Shown piece after piece: positions 1-50,081 of a DNA stretch of 64,000 nucleotides. The DNA lies in NCBI GenBank assembly GCA_034521975.1, contig JAXHLR010000006.1, positions 62,001 to 126,000 on the forward strand. The letters run 5' to 3'. A program made the translations under genes and the position numbers. The notes beneath the pieces are model-generated. The model saw only the letters and a program-made list of their open reading frames with translations, was not told the origin of the DNA and did no database searches. Source of the DNA: Acidimicrobiales bacterium. Lineage in GTDB: Bacteria; Actinomycetota; Acidimicrobiia; Acidimicrobiales; SKKL01. The stretch's first letter is position 1. Every line of letters starts with the position of its first letter.

Positions 1-2484
1 CTCGGCCACCGACAGGAACTGGTCTGGTGCGAGCCGGCCTCGCACCGGATGGTTCCACCGGATCAGCGCCTCGACACCGACCCACCCGCCCTCGACCAGT
101 GACCACAGTGGCTGGTAGAAGAGCTCGAGCTCATCGGAGTCGAATGCCCGCCGCAGGTCGTGTTCCACCTGGTGGCGGGCCAGGGCCGCCTGGCGGATCT
201 CGTCGGTGAAGAGCTCGACCCGGCGGCGACCCATGGCTTTGGCGTGGTACATGGCCGCGTCGGCGTCGCGCAGTACCGAGGCCACCGTGCTGTCGGTGAC
301 CGCCACCACCACACCGATGCTGGAGGTGATGACCACATCCTCCCCGTCGACCTGCACCGGCTCAGAGGTCGCGGCCACCACCCGCTCGGCAAGCGACAAC
401 GCATCGGCCGCCGACGAGATCCGGTGGGACAACACGGCGAACTCGTCACCACCCAGGCGTGCCACCACGTCGCCCGGCCGCACCGACCTCGTCAACCGAT
501 CAGCCGCAGCCTGCAGCACGGCATCGCCCACGTCGTGACCCTGGCTGTCGTTGAGCACCTTGAACTGGTCGAGGTCGATGAACAGCACGGCGGGAAACGC
601 CCCGCTTCGTGTCCCGTGGCGCAGCGCGTCGTCGAGGTGCTCGGAGAACAGTCGCCGGTTGGCGAGCCCGGTGAGGGCGTCGTGGGTGGCCTGATGGATC
701 AGCGACGTCTGCAGACGCTGCTGCTCGGTGACGTCGCGCACCACCACGATCGCTTCGTTGCCGGCCACGGTGACCCTGGCCTCGTACGACCTCGTGTGCC
801 CGCCCCGTGATTCCTCCACGGCCTCGATCCGGCTGGTGCCGGCCTCACCACGATGCAACGCCTGTTCCACCGGTCGGACCAGCTCGGGAAACACCTCGGC
901 GAGCAACCGACCCGACGCGGCATCGGCCGACAGGAAGGTGGGGTCCTCCGCCGAGGGGCGCCAGTCGAGCACCACGCCCTCGGAATCGACACGGACCAAC
1001 AGATCGGGGATCCCCTCGACGAGCGCCCGGAACCGTCGTTCGGAACGGCGGACCTCGATCTCGGCATCACGCCGGGCGATCACCTGGCCGAACGACACGG
1101 CAGCCGAGCCCAGCACCGTTGCCTCCTGATCGGACCAGGAGCGGGCTCGGCCACACACGTCGAACCCCACCGATCCGATGAGGCGCCCACCGTCGACCAG
1201 GGGCATGACCATCGTCGACTCGACGCCGGTGGCCTCCCAGACAGCTTGCTCGGCTTCCCATCCCGACCCGAGCGTCTCGACCGAGCTGATGCGAACGGTC
1301 TCGCCGCCGGACAGCGCCTCGCGGACCCGGGGCATGGTGGTGTCGGGGAACGCCACCACCGACGGCCGAGCCGCCGGGACTCCCGGGGCCGTCCACTCGT
1401 GGGTCATGTCGAGCAGCACCCCATCGGGACGGTACTGGGTCACATAGGCACGGTCGGCCCCCATCGCCTGGCCGAGAGAACTGAGGGCGGCCTCGATGCC
1501 CGAGTCCACCTCATCGGGCGGTATCTCGATGAAGCGCTGACTGACCTGGGTGACCAGCGCCAGCACCTCGGACCGCTCTTCGACCGCCACCTCGGCACGC
1601 TTGCGGTCGGTGATGTCGATGCCGACCGCCTGGATCTGGGTGACCCGACCGTCCTCGACCACCGCCGAGGTGCTCCACTGTTGCCACCGTTGGTTGCCCT
1701 CGGTGTCGTAGAGGAACCCCTCGTCGATCACCAGCGGGTGTTCGGGGGTCAGCGACGCGATGGTGACCGCGGCCGGCTCACGACGCGGCTCGGGCAGCAG
1801 GTCGAGCATCCGCTTGCCGACCAGCTGGTCGGGCTCGTGGCCGTGGTAGTGGGCGAACGCCTCGTTGGCGAAGAGGAGCGTCGAGTCCGGGAGGAACCGG
1901 CACACCAGCTCGGCCTGGTGTTCGACCAGGTCCCGGTAGCGACCCTCGCTCTCGGCCAAGGCGGTGAGCGCCTCGTGCTCGCGCGTGACATCGCGCAACG
2001 ACACCACCACCTGATCTCCCCTTGGGATGGCCGACAACGCGAGCCGGTGCGTGGTGCCGCGCAGGAACGTGGCTTGCACCTCGGTGGCCTGGGGCTTGCC
2101 GGAGGTCACGGCCTCTTCCAGGAGCTGGTAGCGGCCATCCTCCACCGTGGCCGGCAGGTGCTCGCGGAGCCGGCGACCGACCCAGTCTCCGCTGCCGGGT
2201 GGGAACATCCCCAGGAGCACCTCGTTGACGAAGACCATCTCGAAGTCGATGATCTGGCCCGAACCGTCGCGGACCGCGCGGTGCACGGCGATGCCGTCGC
2301 TGGTCGCGTCGATGACCCGGCGAAGGAACGCCGCGTCGTACACCGGTTCGTTCGGGTGGTCGGCCGCTGAGGCCAGGGTCATCGTCAGCTCCAGGAGCCG
2401 TGAGCGGAGATCTGGTGCAACCGTCGGCACCTGGGGGACCCAGATGAGTGTGAACCACGGGGTGCAGTCGACGCCGAAGGTCAC
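1..2484 (-). CDS. PAS/GAF sensor protein with GGDEF and EAL domains (3' end cut by window edge)
   Basis: Predicted cyclic-di-GMP turnover protein. The reading frame is open from a GTG at 2484 to the window edge, about 828 codons. Reading inward it shows PAS-like segments, a GAF-like segment (about 1200-1500), another PAS, a diguanylate cyclase domain with an intact GGDEF motif in ARLGGDEFAVLS, and then the start of a phosphodiesterase domain with VEALIRW, i.e. an EAL motif. The end of the EAL domain lies outside the window, so its activity cannot be judged. The GTG overlaps the TGA of dnaE2 by four bases (GTGA), so translation is probably coupled; an in-frame ATG at 2382 is the alternative start. 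No membrane segment is evident, so it is probably cytoplasmic. Placement behind an SOS-controlled polymerase is unusual. Confidence 0.85.
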   Translation of the reverse strand, partial: MTFGVDCTPWFTLIWVPQVPTVAPDLRSRLLELTMTLASAADHPNEPVYDAAFLRRVIDATSDGIAVHRAVRDGSGQIIDFEMVFVNEVLLGMFPPGSGDWVGRRLREHLPATVEDGRYQLLEEAVTSGKPQATEVQATFLRGTTHRLALSAIPRGDQVVVSLRDVTREHEALTALAESEGRYRDLVEHQAELVCRFLPDSTLLFANEAFAHYHGHEPDQLVGKRMLDLLPEPRREPAAVTIASLTPEHPLVIDEGFLYDTEGNQRWQQWSTSAVVEDGRVTQIQAVGIDITDRKRAEVAVEERSEVLALVTQVSQRFIEIPPDEVDSGIEAALSSLGQAMGADRAYVTQYRPDGVLLDMTHEWTAPGVPAARPSVVAFPDTTMPRVREALSGGETVRISSVETLGSGWEAEQAVWEATGVESTMVMPLVDGGRLIGSVGFDVCGRARSWSDQEATVLGSAAVSFGQVIARRDAEIEVRRSERRFRALVEGIPDLLVRVDSEGVVLDWRPSAEDPTFLSADAASGRLLAEVFPELVRPVEQALHRGEAGTSRIEAVEESRGGHTRSYEARVTVAGNEAIVVVRDVTEQQRLQTSLIHQATHDALTGLANRRLFSEHLDDALRHGTRSGAFPAVLFIDLDQFKVLNDSQGHDVGDAVLQAAADRLTRSVRPGDVVARLGGDEFAVLSHRISSAADALSLAERVVAATSEPVQVDGEDVVITSSIGVVVAVTDSTVASVLRDADAAMYHAKAMGRRRVELFTDEIRQAALARHQVEHDLRRAFDSDELELFYQPLWSLVEGGWVGVEALIRWNHPVRGRLAPDQFLSVAE

Positions 2485-5400
2485 CGAAAGTCCCTGGACG
2501 GGCGGGTGCGGGCGGCCAACGGCAGCGGCTCGATCCGCTCGGCGATGACGTTGACCACCCCGCCGTCGCCACGTTCGAGACGACCGTGCACCATCAGCGC
2601 CGGGGCCCCCCGAGCCACCCGCCGGTACCGGCTCCAGCACCCCATCGACACCACCACGTTCACCAGGCCGGTCTCGTCCTCGAGGTTGACGAAGGTGGTG
2701 CCCGAGGCGGTGGCCGGCCGTTGCCGGTGGGTCACCACACCGCCCACCAGGACCTTGGTGCCGTGATCGAGACCGACCAGGTCGGCGGCGGTGACCACCC
2801 CCAGGCCGGCGAGATGATCCCGGACGAACCGGGTGGGGTGCCCATCGGGTGACACGCCGGTGGCCCACAGGTCGGCCATGGCCAGCTCGTGGTCGCTCAT
2901 ACCGGGCAACGGCGGTGCCTCGACCCCGGTGAGCATGCCCTCGAGGCGATCGTCGCGCGCCACCGCGACCGCACCCGCGGCCCACAGCGCCGAGCGACGG
3001 TCGAGTCCGAAGCCGTCGAAGGCCCCTGCGGTGGCGAGCGCCTCGAGCACGGGGGCTGGTGGCCGGACCCGCCGGGCCAGGTCCTCGGGCGAACGGTAGG
3101 GAGCACCGTCCACGATGCGTTCGGCCAGATCGGTTCCGACCCCACGGATCGACGACAGCCCCAGCCGTACCGTCGGTCCTCCCACCCCCCACTCCGACGG
3201 CGGGGCACCCGACGGTGGCGGCGTGCCGGCAGATCCTTCGAGGGTGGCATGCACCCCCGACGCATTGATGTCGGGGGTGGCCACCGGGACTCCGTGACGG
3301 CGGGCATCCTGGACCAGCGAGTGCGGCGAGTAGAACCCCATGGGTTGGGCGCCGAGGAGCCCCGCGCAGAACGCCGCCGGGTGGTAGCGCTTGCACCACG
3401 AGCTGGCATAGACCAGGTAGGCGAACGACACCGAGTGGCTCTCGGGGAACCCGAAGTTGGCGAAGGCCGCCAGCTTGTCGTAGATGGCATCGGCCACCTC
3501 GCCGGTGATGCCCCGGGCGCCCATGCCATCGAAGAGGCGCCGACGGAGGCGTTCCATGCGCTCGGCGCTGCGCTTGGCTCCCATGGCCTGGCGGAGCTGA
3601 TCGGCCTCGGCCGGGCTGAAGCCGGCCACGTCGATGGCCATCGCCATGAGCTGCTCCTGGAACAGCGGCACACCGAGGGTCTTGGCCAGCGACCGCTCGA
3701 GCAGCGGATGAAGGTAGGTGACCGGCTCCTGGCCGTTGCGGCGCCGGATGTAGGGGTGCACCGACCCGCCCTGGATCGGCCCGGGACGGATGAGCGCGAC
3801 CTCGACCACCAGGTCATAGAACGTGCGGGGACGCAACCGTGGCAGCGTGGCCATCTGGGCCCGGCTCTCGACCTGGAAGACCCCGATGGAGTCGGCCCGG
3901 CACAGCATGTCGTAGACCTCGGGGTCCTGGGGCAACGAGGCCAGGTCGATGTCGATGCCCTGGTGGTCGCGCACCAGGTCGATGGTGAGGTGCAGGGCGG
4001 TGAGCATGCCGAGTCCGAGCAGGTCGAACTTGACCAGGCCGGTGGCCGCGCAGTCGTCCTTGTCCCACTGCAGCACGGTGCGGCCGTCCATGCGGGCCCA
4101 CTCGACCGGGCACACCTCGACCACCGGCCGGTCGCAGATCACCATGCCCCCGGAGTGGATGCCGAGATGGCGGGGGAAGTGCTCGACCGCTCCGGCGAGC
4201 TCGAGCACCGACGGCGGGATGGAGGAGTCCGGTCGGGCCGCGGTGGCCGACACCGGACCCCAACGGTCGACCTCCTTGCTCCAGGCGTCCTGCTGGCCCG
4301 GCGCGTGGCCGAGCGCCTTGGCCATGTCGCGCACCGCGGACTTGGCCCGGTAGGTGATGACGTTGGCCACCTGGGCAGCGTGGCGGCGACCGTGCCGTTC
4401 GTAGACGTACTGGATGACCTCTTCGCGCCGATCGCTCTCGATGTCGATGTCGATGTCGGGAGGGCCGTCGCGCTCGGACGAGAGGAATCGCTCGAACAGC
4501 AACCCGAGCGAGACCGCATCGGCGTTGGTGATGCCGAGGGCGAAGCAGACCGCCGAGTTGGCCGCCGAGCCCCGTCCCTGGCAGAGGATGTTCTGGCGGT
4601 GGCAGAACTGGACCAGGTCCCAGACGATGAGGAAGTAGCCGGGGAACCCCAACTGGTCGATGACGCTCAGCTCGTGGTCGATCTGAGCCCACGCTCCCGG
4701 CACCCGTTCGTCATGGCGGGAGCCATACCTCGAGGTGGCGCCCTGTTCGGTGAGGTGCCGGAGATGGGACATCTCGTCGAACCCGGCCGGGCAGGGGAAC
4801 GGCGGCAGCTCGGGTGCCACGAGGGCCAGGTCGAACGCGCACGCCAACCCCAGCTGTGCGGCCCGCTCGACCACACCGGGATACCGGGCGAAGCGTCGGG
4901 CTTGTTCGGTGCCCGACCGCAGATGGGCGCACGGACCGGCCGGGAGCCAGCCGTCGACGTCGTCGAGCGAGCGTCGGGACCGCACCGCGGCGAGCGCGGT
5001 GGCGAGCGGCCGACGGGCGGGGCTGGCGTAGTGGACGTTGTTGGTGGCCACCGGCTCGACCCCGAGCGACATCGCCAGGGAGGCCAACGCGTCGTTGCGG
5101 GCCGAGTCGAGGGGATCGCCGTGATCCCACAGCTCGACGAAGACGTGGTCGGTCCCGAAGCGCTCGACCAACCGCTGCAGCTCGCGCCGGGCCCCGGTCG
5201 GGCCCTCGGCCATCAACGCCCGGTTGACCGCTCCCTTGCGGCACCCGGTGAGCACCGCCCAGTGCCCGGGCGGACCAGCCAGCCCTGCCAGGGCGTCGAG
5301 GTCGAGTCGGGGCGCTCCCTTCTCCCCTTCCAACTGGGCGTCGCTGATGGCCGCAGACAGCCGGGCGTAGCCAGTGGGGTCGCGAGCCAGCACCACGAGG

Positions 5401-5822
5401 TGGTCGCCATCGGGATCGGCGTGGCCGGCCGGTGGCGCGACGGCGCCCAGCGTGAGCTCGGCCCCGAACACGGTGGGGAGGCCGTGGACCCGGGCGGCCT
5501 CGGCGAAGCGGACCACCCCGTAGAAGCCGTCGTGGTCGGTGAGCGCGAGGGCCGCGAGCCCGAGCTCCGCGGCGTGCTCCACCAACTCCTCGGGGTGTGA
5601 GGCTCCGTCGAGAAAGCTGAAGTTGGAGTGGCAGTGCAGCTCGGCATAGGGCACCGAACCCGGCCGGCGCCGGACCTGGGCGGGCGGGGTGTAGGGCCCA
5701 CGTGTGCGCGACCAGGCCGGGCTGTCGGCGCCGTCACCGGGGAAGGGGTGGTCGCCTCGGGCGCTGCCCGACAGGCGCTGCTCGAGCACCGACCATCGAA
5801 CCGGAGGGTTGCGCCATCCCAT
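2481..5822 (-). CDS. dnaE2: Error-prone DNA polymerase DnaE2
   Basis: Second C-family DNA polymerase alpha subunit, the translesion polymerase of the ImuA'-ImuB-DnaE2 mutasome. It has 1113 residues, normal for DnaE2. The N-terminus (PVRWSVLEQRLSG) is typical of actinobacterial DnaE2, which supports the ATG at 5822. A PHP domain begins near residue 59 (ELHCHSNFSF). The polymerase catalytic aspartates are seen in PDIDIDIE near residues 450-457. A C-terminal OB-fold-like segment follows. Unlike the replicative DnaE1 it is short at the C-terminus. A perfect SOS box lies 16 bp upstream, and the gene overlaps the following GGDEF/EAL gene. imuA' and imuB are about 4 kb away as a separate SOS-box operon. 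Confidence 0.95.
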   Translation of the reverse strand: MGWRNPPVRWSVLEQRLSGSARGDHPFPGDGADSPAWSRTRGPYTPPAQVRRRPGSVPYAELHCHSNFSFLDGASHPEELVEHAAELGLAALALTDHDGFYGVVRFAEAARVHGLPTVFGAELTLGAVAPPAGHADPDGDHLVVLARDPTGYARLSAAISDAQLEGEKGAPRLDLDALAGLAGPPGHWAVLTGCRKGAVNRALMAEGPTGARRELQRLVERFGTDHVFVELWDHGDPLDSARNDALASLAMSLGVEPVATNNVHYASPARRPLATALAAVRSRRSLDDVDGWLPAGPCAHLRSGTEQARRFARYPGVVERAAQLGLACAFDLALVAPELPPFPCPAGFDEMSHLRHLTEQGATSRYGSRHDERVPGAWAQIDHELSVIDQLGFPGYFLIVWDLVQFCHRQNILCQGRGSAANSAVCFALGITNADAVSLGLLFERFLSSERDGPPDIDIDIESDRREEVIQYVYERHGRRHAAQVANVITYRAKSAVRDMAKALGHAPGQQDAWSKEVDRWGPVSATAARPDSSIPPSVLELAGAVEHFPRHLGIHSGGMVICDRPVVEVCPVEWARMDGRTVLQWDKDDCAATGLVKFDLLGLGMLTALHLTIDLVRDHQGIDIDLASLPQDPEVYDMLCRADSIGVFQVESRAQMATLPRLRPRTFYDLVVEVALIRPGPIQGGSVHPYIRRRNGQEPVTYLHPLLERSLAKTLGVPLFQEQLMAMAIDVAGFSPAEADQLRQAMGAKRSAERMERLRRRLFDGMGARGITGEVADAIYDKLAAFANFGFPESHSVSFAYLVYASSWCKRYHPAAFCAGLLGAQPMGFYSPHSLVQDARRHGVPVATPDINASGVHATLEGSAGTPPPSGAPPSEWGVGGPTVRLGLSSIRGVGTDLAERIVDGAPYRSPEDLARRVRPPAPVLEALATAGAFDGFGLDRRSALWAAGAVAVARDDRLEGMLTGVEAPPLPGMSDHELAMADLWATGVSPDGHPTRFVRDHLAGLGVVTAADLVGLDHGTKVLVGGVVTHRQRPATASGTTFVNLEDETGLVNVVVSMGCWSRYRRVARGAPALMVHGRLERGDGGVVNVIAERIEPLPLAARTRPSRDFR

Positions 5823-5837: not shown

Positions 5838-5853
5838 TCGAACAGTTGTTCGA
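5838..5853 (-). promoter_or_regulatory. LexA/SOS box of dnaE2
   Basis: TCGAACAGTTGTTCGA is a perfect match to the actinobacterial LexA consensus TCGAAC-N4-GTTCGA. It ends 16 bp before the dnaE2 ATG, so the transcript must start between the box and the gene and will have a very short or no leader. LexA bound here would cover the core promoter. Confidence 0.9.
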
Positions 5854-5932: not shown

Positions 5933-7063
5933 TCAGCAGCTGTCGACCTCGGTCCAGGAGTTGGTTCCGGTCTGCTGCAGCGAACTGAACGAGAACGAGC
6001 TGTTCCAGCCCAGGTAGTCGCCGGAGCCACGGGCATAGACAAAGCCCCAGATCGACACGGCACGGTCGTTGTCGACATGAGCCGCGTTGCTCGACGTGAT
6101 GCAGACCAAGCCGTCGTCGCCGTCGTCGTCGCCGTCGTCGCCGTCGTCGCCATCGTCACCGCCGGTTCCCCAACCGGTGTCGCAGTTGTCGCGGACGTCG
6201 CTGAACGAGGCGCCGAAGCCACCCGCGGTCGGGGCCTCGTCGCCGCACAGGAACGTGTTGTAGCGGGAGTCGTCGTCGACCCAGCGCTTGAACCACGACA
6301 CGCTCACCGCCGAGATGTCGGCGTTGGTGATGTTGGGAGCGCCGTGACCCGCTCCGTCGAGCTCGACATACATCTTCGGAGTGGAGTCGGGCAAGCCCTC
6401 ATAGAACGGGATCGAGTGCGAGCTCACCGAAGCGATCGAGTCGTTCTCGGCGCCGACGATGAGCTGCGGGACGGTGATGCTCGACCAGGTCTTGGTCGTG
6501 TGCCAGGCCGTCAGCGGGACCGAGGCCTCCAGCGAGGGACGGTCGTCGGAGGCCGCCAGCGAACCGCCGCCTCCCATGGAGTGGCCCGACACCGCCATGC
6601 GGCTGCTGTCGAGACGGGCCTGCACCGCAGAGGGAGGCGAGCTCGAGCTCAACCAGTCGGCGGCCGCCAGCAGCTGGTCGCCACGGCTGTTGGGGAAGTC
6701 GAACGCGCTGTTGGTGTCGATCACCAGCACCACGAACCCGTGCGACGCCAGGCGCCGGCCGTACCAGCTCAGAGTCGACGAGCCAGCGGTGTAGCCCGGC
6801 GACGCCACGATCCCGCCGAAGGTCTCGCTGGTGCCGGTCGGGTAGTAGACGGTGCCTCCACCGAACCCGCTGACGAACGACGACACGCCGCTCGTCGAGA
6901 CCGAGTACGGTCCCGAGCTCTCGATCGACGACGAGGTGGGATCGGGTCCCCGTTCGTAGGGATTGGTCTGGGCCTCCACCGCCGACGGCGCGAAGAACAG
7001 GCTCGCCGCCAGCAGGGTGAGGGTCACGAGAAGCGCCGAACGCCTCCGGTGTTGAGTGGTCAT
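5933..7063 (-). CDS. Secreted cutinase / PET-hydrolase-like polyester hydrolase with C-terminal accessory domain
   Basis: Alpha/beta hydrolase of the Thermobifida cutinase / IsPETase family, predicted to hydrolyse polyester or other ester bonds outside the cell. It has 376 residues. Residues 1-31 are a Sec signal peptide (AVEAQ cleavage region), and the mature start [10 protein letters not shown] is a family hallmark. The nucleophile is Ser162 in GHSMGGGG, with Asp208 in ENDSIA and His240 in GAGHGAPN. Tyr91 and Trp187 match the aromatic clamp, and Cys273/Cys294 match the conserved disulfide. The Ser-Asp and Asp-His spacings (46 and 32) fit type I cutinases; the second PETase disulfide is absent. 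An Asp/Gly linker (residues 301-318) leads to a small domain (319-376) with SNAAHV, YARGSG and YLGWN, resembling the C-terminal module of short-chain PHB depolymerases. The start at 7063 has the Shine-Dalgarno AAGGGGA. Substrate is not proven. Confidence 0.9.
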
Positions 7064-7342: not shown

Positions 7343-8707
7343 TCAGGGCTCCTTCGGGTGAGGGATGGTCACCCTGACGGTGGTGCCCCGACCCGGCGCC
7401 GTGGCGATGTCGAGCGTGCCACCGATCCGCGCGATGTTGGTCTTGACCACGTCCATGCCGACGCCGCGACCCGAGAGGCTGGTGACCTGCGAGGTGGTGG
7501 TCAGGCCGGGCAGGAAGACGAGCTTGACCAGCTCCTGTGGGGTCATGCTCTCGCCCTGTGAGCGAGTGATGCTCCCCCGCTCGATCGCTTCGTCACGAAT
7601 CCGGCGCGCATCGATGCCCCTCCCATCGTCGGCGATCTCGATGACCACCTGCCCAGTTTCGTGGTAAGCCCGCAACCAGAGTCGACCCTCGATCGGCTTT
7701 CCGGCGGCTGCTCGGGCGGACCGGTCCTCGATGCCATGGTCCACCGCGTTGCGCACCAGGTGCGCGAGGGGATCCTTGATCGCCTCGACGACCGCCTTGT
7801 CGACCTCGACGTCGGCTCCGTCCATCTCGACCCGGACCTCCTTGGAAAGCGAGCGGGCGAGGTCCCGCACCACACGGGGGAACCGCTTCCAGAGGACCCC
7901 GATGGGCTGCATCCTGGCGCTCATCACCTTCTGTCCCAGCTCGGAGCCGATCCGCTCGAGCCGCTCCACCGGATCGGCGAGCCCTTGTCGAGCACTGTCG
8001 GGCCCGAGACGTCTCAGGTCCTCGCTCACCGACCCCAGCTCGCCGACGAGCCCCAGGAGCTCGTCGAGCAACCGAACGTCGACCCGGACCGTGGATGCGG
8101 CGGAGGCGACCCCTCGGACCTCGCTCTGGGCGTGCAAGGCGGCCTCGACGGTGGCGTCGTCGATCACGCCGAGGGCAACAAGGATCTCCCCGAGCGGCCG
8201 CCGGTCGCCGAGCGCCTGTTCGGTGACGGCAAGCTCGACGGCCTCCGCGCTGACCAGGCCCTGCTCGACGAGCAGATCGCCGAGACGTACCGGACGGCTC
8301 GGAGGTGGACCATCCTGCAACCGGATCAGCTCCGCGATGAGCTCCTCGTGGTCCCCGGCTTCGTCGTCGGATCCGGTGGCCGCGATCACGAGCAGGATGT
8401 CTCGCATCGCGTCGACCGTGGACAGCAGTGCTGCGGTGACCTCATCGGTCACCGCGAGGTGCTCGTCGCGTAGCAGGCTCAACAGGTTCTCCGCCGCGTG
8501 ACCAACCGACCCGAGCAGGTCGTAGCCGAAGAAGCCACACGTTCCCTTGATGCTGTGCACCGCCCGGAAGATCGAACCGAGCAACTCGGTCGAGGGACGC
8601 TCCTCCAGCGCGAGCAGATCGAGATCGAGTCGATCGAGGCTGTCGTGGGCCTCGGCGAGGAACTCCTGCACCACCTCGTCGACGAGTCCATCGTCCATGT
8701 CGGTCAC
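7343..8707 (-). CDS. CheA-like histidine kinase lacking a CheW-like domain
   Basis: Hybrid Hpt/histidine kinase of the CheA type, 454 residues from the GTG at 8707 (GGAG eight bases upstream; an ATG at 8698 is the alternative). Order: Hpt domain with phospho-acceptor His51 in AVHSIKGTCGFFG; a repeated helical segment (LGDLLVEQGLVSAEAVE...LGEILVALGVIDDATVE) like those inserted in some CheA and type II secretion N-domains; an H-kinase dimer region; and a CheA-type ATPase with HLVRNAVDHGIED, DDGRGID and GRGVGMDVV. The protein stops right after the ATPase (TTVRVTIPHPKEP), where other CheA proteins continue into the P5/CheW-like domain that docks receptors. No cheW, cheY or receptor gene is adjacent, so it probably signals outside classical chemotaxis. 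Confidence 0.85.
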   Translation of the reverse strand: MTDMDDGLVDEVVQEFLAEAHDSLDRLDLDLLALEERPSTELLGSIFRAVHSIKGTCGFFGYDLLGSVGHAAENLLSLLRDEHLAVTDEVTAALLSTVDAMRDILLVIAATGSDDEAGDHEELIAELIRLQDGPPPSRPVRLGDLLVEQGLVSAEAVELAVTEQALGDRRPLGEILVALGVIDDATVEAALHAQSEVRGVASAASTVRVDVRLLDELLGLVGELGSVSEDLRRLGPDSARQGLADPVERLERIGSELGQKVMSARMQPIGVLWKRFPRVVRDLARSLSKEVRVEMDGADVEVDKAVVEAIKDPLAHLVRNAVDHGIEDRSARAAAGKPIEGRLWLRAYHETGQVVIEIADDGRGIDARRIRDEAIERGSITRSQGESMTPQELVKLVFLPGLTTTSQVTSLSGRGVGMDVVKTNIARIGGTLDIATAPGRGTTVRVTIPHPKEP

Positions 8708-8880
8708 ACTGATCGGTCTCCGGTGTCGTCCTTGACACGGCGCTGGGGTCGGGCCGCACTCGATCAGTGGGCGCGATCGGCACCGGACCGGGCGGGATGA
8801 GCCTTCACCGGCACGGGTGACCGAACCGCGGTCACGGCACCTAGTGTCACGGTGTCGAGACCCACTGGAGGAGCGCACCG

Positions 8881-12142: not shown

Positions 12143-12158
12143 TCGAACAGATGTTCGA
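12143..12158 (-). promoter_or_regulatory. LexA/SOS box and promoter of imuA'-imuB
   Basis: TCGAACAGATGTTCGA, a perfect TCGAAC-N4-GTTCGA box. On the minus strand it lies in the 18-bp spacer between a -35-like TTGCAC (12170-12165) and a -10-like GATACT. The -10 ends five bases before the ATG, so the mRNA is probably leaderless. LexA binding would block RNA polymerase directly. Confidence 0.9.
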
Positions 12159-49247: not shown

Positions 49248-50081
49248 TCACACCAGCACCGCCGCGGCGGTGACGACGACGACAGCGATCCCGAAGAACA
49301 TCTGCTGCAGGCCGATGACCTGGGCGGGCCGGGGCGCGGCACGGATCGCCGCCGCGTTGAACGCAGCAACCGAGGCGATCGCGACCGCTGCCGCGGGGGG
49401 CACGGCACCGATGAGCCATGCGACGGCGACTGCGGCGACTGCGAGAGCTTGCGCCATGTCGCTGTGCCAGAGGTGGTGCGGCCTGCCGTGTGCCCGGAAC
49501 ACCTGGGTCCGTGCGTAGGGGATCGCAGCTGCGCCTCGTGCCGCGACGACGACCCACAGTCCTAGAGCTAGTGAGGCCTCCGCTCCGTCCGCGAGCGCGA
49601 TCGCTGCGGCAACCGAGCTGATGCCGACGGTCCCGGCCAGCTCGGGCAACAGCCGTCGGCCACGGCTACGCATGTCGAACCACAGTTCGATCGCCACAAG
49701 AGGCGCTGCGGCGAGCAACGGCCACCACATGCGTGCGTCGCCTCCCACCGCCGCGGCCATCGCCAGCGCGACGAGCGCGACGAGCTCCACCGCCGCGACC
49801 CGTGCGGCGAGAGTGGTCCGCGGCAGCCAGCGGCCGCGCCACCGATCGACGAGCACGAGCTTCAGGGGTGCCCGTGCGAGGAAGGCCAACATGGCCGCGG
49901 CACCGAGCGCCAGACCGGGCCAGGACCATGCGACCAGCAGACCGAGCAGGATCGGTTCGAGCGTCAGACTCCAGCCGCCGTGCTCGATCGGCATGGCCAC
50001 GGCTCGCAGCGCGGAGCGGTCTCCGGGAGAGACCGGTTCGCCCGACGCACCCGCAGCGCGACGAACGGTCGACTCAGCCAT
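49248..50081 (-). CDS. YwiC-like membrane protein
   Basis: 277 residues, about eight helices. N-terminal MPIEHGGWSLTLEPILLGLLVAW is the YwiC-family signature (E-H-G-x-W). YwiC genes often sit near nitrate/nitrite respiration genes, here the globin operon. Last gene of the minus-strand globin operon; ends 57 bp before the tRNA remnant. Confidence 0.8.
   Translation of the reverse strand: MAESTVRRAAGASGEPVSPGDRSALRAVAMPIEHGGWSLTLEPILLGLLVAWSWPGLALGAAAMLAFLARAPLKLVLVDRWRGRWLPRTTLAARVAAVELVALVALAMAAAVGGDARMWWPLLAAAPLVAIELWFDMRSRGRRLLPELAGTVGISSVAAAIALADGAEASLALGLWVVVAARGAAAIPYARTQVFRAHGRPHHLWHSDMAQALAVAAVAVAWLIGAVPPAAAVAIASVAAFNAAAIRAAPRPAQVIGLQQMFFGIAVVVVTAAAVLV

Follow-up and report, generated by a model that had tools for sequence, protein, structure and literature searches.

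The window, the whole 64,000-nucleotide stretch of DNA analysed here, comes from an uncultured actinobacterium and carries on its minus strand a gene whose product places a C-terminal tail resembling the substrate-binding domain (SBD) of PHB depolymerases behind a PETase-family catalytic domain. The open reading frame at 5933-7063, proposed in an earlier sequence-only reading of this DNA, is real. Its ATG start at 7063 lies downstream of GAAGGGGA, a stretch that resembles a ribosome-binding site, and both the start position and the N-terminus are kept in an ortholog (L005). A longer frame is also open from 7306, the shorter start being preferred because it yields a clean signal peptide and an N-terminus that is conserved in L005. 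The features of the gene, in the order of the encoded protein, are as follows.

5933..7063, minus strand: whole coding sequence, 376 amino acids plus stop.
6971..7063, minus strand: signal peptide, residues 1-31, assigned by inspection; aligns with the start of the precursor of leaf-branch compost cutinase (LCC).
6182..6967, minus strand: PETase/cutinase catalytic domain, residues 33-294, with C273/C294 (PF12740; LCC, 4eb0).
6578..6580, minus strand: codon of catalytic Ser162 (GHSMGG), from sequence and alignment.
6440..6442, minus strand: codon of catalytic Asp208 (ENDSIA), from sequence and alignment.
6341..6346, minus strand: codons of catalytic His240 and of Gly241, the latter standing where the compared type I relatives have Phe.
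6104..6181, minus strand: Gly/Asp-rich acidic linker, residues 295-320, from sequence.
5936..6103, minus strand: putative PHB-depolymerase-type SBD, residues 321-376, running from C321 to C376, by tail homology.

The mature protein is acidic (pI 4.1), and its cysteines fall into two pairs, 273 and 294 within the catalytic domain and 321 and 376 bracketing the tail. Downstream of the fusion gene and on the same strand lies dnaE2 (2481-5822), encoding an error-prone polymerase, while a CheA-like kinase gene (7343-8878) lies upstream, again on the same strand, followed by imuB and imuA'. In L005, dnaE2 is again found downstream and, by eye, chemotaxis-like genes upstream; the neighbours of a further family member (L008) differ from those in the window. 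No functional partner is evident among the neighbours, and the fusion gene may be transcribed alone. As an observation on the surrounding genes, the window contains three perfect CGAAC-N4-GTTCG palindromes against 0.14 expected, one just upstream of dnaE2 (5839-5852), one close to the probable actual start of imuA' (12144-12157) and one at 49676-49689; the first two resemble SOS boxes of the LexA type belonging to an ImuA'-ImuB-DnaE2 mutasome.

Residues 31-294 match PF12740 (PETase) with an E-value of 1.8e-110 and 368.9 bits (cut-off 28 bits), across profile positions 2-262 of 263, and the nearest solved relatives are LCC, variants of LCC and BhrPETase (PDB 7eoa, which we take to be this enzyme). 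Identity to LCC (4eb0), an industrial PET hydrolase and the best known of the enzymes that degrade this plastic, is 62% over 252 columns, and the triad, Tyr91, Met163, Trp187 and the flanking motifs are the same in LCC, in BhrPETase and in the window protein. The hallmarks of the PETase family, namely a Ser-His-Asp triad, a GxSxG motif, the oxyanion Tyr and Met and the clamp Trp, are all present. Sequence and alignment thus bear out the residues named in the sequence-only reading (the triad Ser162/Asp208/His240, Tyr91, Trp187, the mature start and the ENDSIA block), as well as its assignment of the protein to the PETase family and, within it, to type I with a single disulfide, since the only cysteines of the catalytic domain are C273 and C294 and those of the second, type II disulfide are absent. 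IsPETase, a type II enzyme, has the ENDSIA block, the triad and the clamp Trp in common with the window protein but possesses that second disulfide; its FACENDS and HSCAN motifs, with their extra cysteines, correspond to VGAENDS and HGAPN here, and His161 stands in place of a Trp. The NCBIfam model NF051441, an equivalog for bis(hydroxyethyl) terephthalate hydrolase, scores 373.1 bits, below its curated cut-off of 520 bits, and by this measure the protein is related to NF051441 but is not that equivalog.

One residue sets the window protein apart from its relatives. Gly241 adjoins the catalytic His at a position where all aligned type I relatives, fusion orthologs included, have Phe, as LCC and BhrPETase do, and where IsPETase-type enzymes have Ser; among the aligned relatives, Gly is found in the window protein alone. 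This substitution could reduce the activity of the enzyme or alter it. Kinship with LCC makes PET hydrolysis plausible, and Gly241 makes quantitative guesses at activity unsafe. The sequence-only reading noted neither this residue nor LCC as the nearest characterised relative.

A further feature lies beyond the catalytic domain. The chains of LCC and BhrPETase, 258-259 residues long, are without an SBD, and the matched IsPETase chains likewise end after the catalytic domain, whereas the window protein continues through the linker into a tail of 56 residues that runs from Cys to Cys. When the last 59 residues were compared with plasmid records by tblastn, seven records matched, six of them annotated at the match as PHB depolymerase family esterase; the seventh, from Pseudoalteromonas donghaensis, is unannotated there but by its sequence looks like another such protein. 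In the matched proteins that were read the match forms the extreme C-terminus and is preceded by linker regions that resemble, by eye, Fn3, PKD or other repeats. Scored against a hidden Markov model made solely from PHB-depolymerase tails (five, taken from annotated rather than experimentally tested enzymes), the window tail reaches 45.5 bits across the full length of the model; none of 2000 shuffled versions exceeds 8.0 bits, so the resemblance is not due to chance. In seven tails compared, eleven positions never vary (C, V, R, A, Y, A, G, S, G, L and C), and the window tail retains both the terminal Cys pair and the invariant core residues of the SBD. Short-chain-length (dPHA-SCL) depolymerases are built, in order, of a signal peptide, a catalytic domain, a linker and an SBD (PMC2666664), a layout that the window protein shares. 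We class the tail as a PHB-depolymerase-type SBD because this layout ends in a substrate-binding domain, and on sequence grounds the two are homologous. The tail of PHB-depolymerase type proposed earlier has therefore passed the sequence test. As for the further suggestion of a 'polymer-binding or secretion module', what is known of the SBD of PHB depolymerases (PMC2666664) supports the first half far better than the second.

An AlphaFold model from an alignment of four sequences had a pLDDT of 28.6, too poor to support structural claims, and no convincing SBD chain was found in the PDB with the tail as query; phmmer also matched the tail to the repetitive protein 7ong, a hit that was rejected because each domain had an i-Evalue of at least 500. 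At the residue level the SBD of the host family has features of its own, in that W339, gained and conserved in this family, stands at a position occupied by Gly or Gln in the PHB-depolymerase tails, while the Tyr of the NYxHV motif is replaced. These two differences raise the possibility that SBD specificity may have drifted from PHB.

The fusion is a property of a bacterial family rather than of one genome. It is present in all four host-family genomes examined, intact in the window and two relatives and degraded in the fourth. The closest ortholog (L005/L021), 77-78% identical to the window protein and intact, comes from an Acidimicrobiales metagenome-assembled genome, and with relatives in the same order it upholds the Acidimicrobiia-like host that had been proposed; the other intact relative (L008) is 60% identical. 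The linker sequence is not conserved in either. The copy in genome G818 (L027/L023) lacks the signal peptide and the first ~87 residues; its linker and half of its SBD have also been lost, with the frame kept. It is either a decaying gene or an assembly fault.

LCC-like PETase-family genes occur in 13 of 397 genomes of the order (E 1e-20), while SBD matches across the same 397 genomes are confined to the four host-family genomes and one other, G831. The tail model found no SBD in those LCC-like proteins outside the host family that could be read; the PETase-family relatives read there lack an SBD, with the exception of one distant enzyme that has an SBD-like tail, and Glycomyces relatives stop directly after the catalytic domain. 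G831 carries two SBD-like tails (L025 and L024), one on a divergent PF12740 hydrolase (64.5 bits) and the other on a secreted-looking protein of 540 amino acids without a Pfam match. No second SBD was found in the window's own genome, and the idea that the SBD had been copied from another gene still present there was rejected for want of a second copy. A scan of viral contigs found no relatives.

Other extensions of PETase-family proteins were seen in the order. Two proteins from another family (L038 and L039, in G876 and G261) have a Gly/Thr/Pro-rich linker and end in Trp-rich tails with two Cys, CAWWQWWC and CPWWAWWC, possibly a different short surface-binding tail. A third (L042, in G814) has a long C-terminal extension that resembles, by eye, a repeat of the Calx-beta type, and in G149 two divergent PETase-family genes (L011 and L012) lie ~5 kb apart, besides an LCC-like gene.

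From the directly observed features, that is, both domains and their homologies, the triad and a fusion conserved in the host family, we infer secretion, binding and polyester hydrolysis, and regard it as likely that the window protein is a secreted two-domain polyester hydrolase. Once outside the cell, the C-terminal SBD, probably closed by a C321-C376 disulfide, would hold the enzyme on an insoluble polyester by adsorbing to its surface; the flexible acidic linker would let the catalytic domain work around this anchor, and the LCC-type alpha/beta-hydrolase would cut ester bonds via Ser162-His240-Asp208. In nature the enzyme would probably act on a polyester of biological origin that other organisms make, cutin-like or PHA-like. 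No PhaC_N match was found in the host genome, so the bacterium itself probably does not make PHB.

The homology of the SBD to that of PHB depolymerases raises the question of whether the enzyme is in practice a PHA (PHB) depolymerase, its SBD directing it to PHA granules or films and its catalytic domain retuned to aliphatic hydroxyalkanoates, with Gly241 opening the cleft. In favour of this, the host genome has a single Esterase_PHB match, a weak one of 28.7 bits in a reading frame that ends without an SBD, and Gly241 is unusual. We nevertheless consider this unlikely, since the catalytic domain is LCC-like and belongs to PF12740, not to the Esterase_PHB family (PF10503) that supplies the catalytic domain of PHB depolymerases, and since Gly241 is absent from the other fusions, so that the fusion does not go with this residue. 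Much less probable still is that the tail serves mainly stability, secretion or cell-wall attachment on what is a soluble esterase or lipase. The SBD-like tail on the 540-residue protein of the same order does indicate that the module is not restricted to depolymerases; yet at the same position in PHB depolymerases it is a substrate-binding domain (PMC2666664), and the window tail has kept its two Cys as well as the Arg, Gly and Tyr residues that do not vary among the tails compared. That the gene is decaying and its product has little activity, as the truncated family member in G818 and the sequence Gly239-His240-Gly241 in place of S/T-H-F in type I relatives might suggest, is very unlikely for an intact frame that retains the triad, Trp187 and the two Cys pairs, shows no frameshift and shares 77-78% identity with its ortholog.

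The relation of LCC to this family was examined with a maximum-likelihood tree built from 23 catalytic domains. In this tree, for which the LCC and BhrPETase sequences were taken from HMMER printouts rather than full records, these two group with the four host-family enzymes (support 100/99) and adjoin the window's genus (support 99/98). A tree forced to unite the SBD-bearing enzymes is worse by 14 log units and is not rejected (AU p 0.074), and with a smaller sequence set a single SBD clade is likewise not rejected (p 0.087). By these results LCC would be either nested in the host family's enzymes or sister to them, and loss of the SBD in LCC is a possibility. We suggest, tentatively, that the ancestor of LCC may have been an enzyme of this Acidimicrobiia family with two domains and an affinity for polyester, the SBD being lost on the way to LCC, and that the family's SBD, with its newly conserved Trp, might naturally bind polyesters other than PHB.

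Combinations of this kind have so far come from the laboratory. A 2022 review noted that hydrolases acting on cellulose and other biopolymers have acquired binding modules in nature, with no enzymes bearing binding modules known in the degradation of synthetic polymers (PMC9871534); it is for this reason that PET researchers grafted modules, one of them from a PHA depolymerase, onto cutinases. As described where it is cited in PMC10423841, the construct of Ribitsch 2013 joined an engineered Thermobifida cellulosilytica cutinase to the binding module of the Alcaligenes faecalis PHA depolymerase, and such a pairing of cutinase and A. faecalis module is reported to improve PET hydrolysis (PMC10423841, PMC11423324). 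On that description, the construct and the window protein both unite a PETase-family cutinase with a PHA-depolymerase binding module, the former lab-made, the latter genomic and conserved in a bacterial family. Fusions of PETase-family enzymes with PHB-depolymerase SBDs are thus already known as engineered constructs, and that of the window is natural. The open-licence literature yielded no description of a natural PETase-SBD fusion and no PET hydrolases from Acidimicrobiia, which does not prove their absence.

Evolution has thus joined an SBD to an LCC-like cutinase, linker included, and kept the combination, and the fusion could serve as nature's own control on the question of whether a PET-hydrolase scaffold benefits from a polyester SBD. 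LCC itself is of metagenomic origin, a review affiliating it with the actinobacterial strain HR29 (PMC9871534), and the fusion described here ties it to a specific bacterial lineage.
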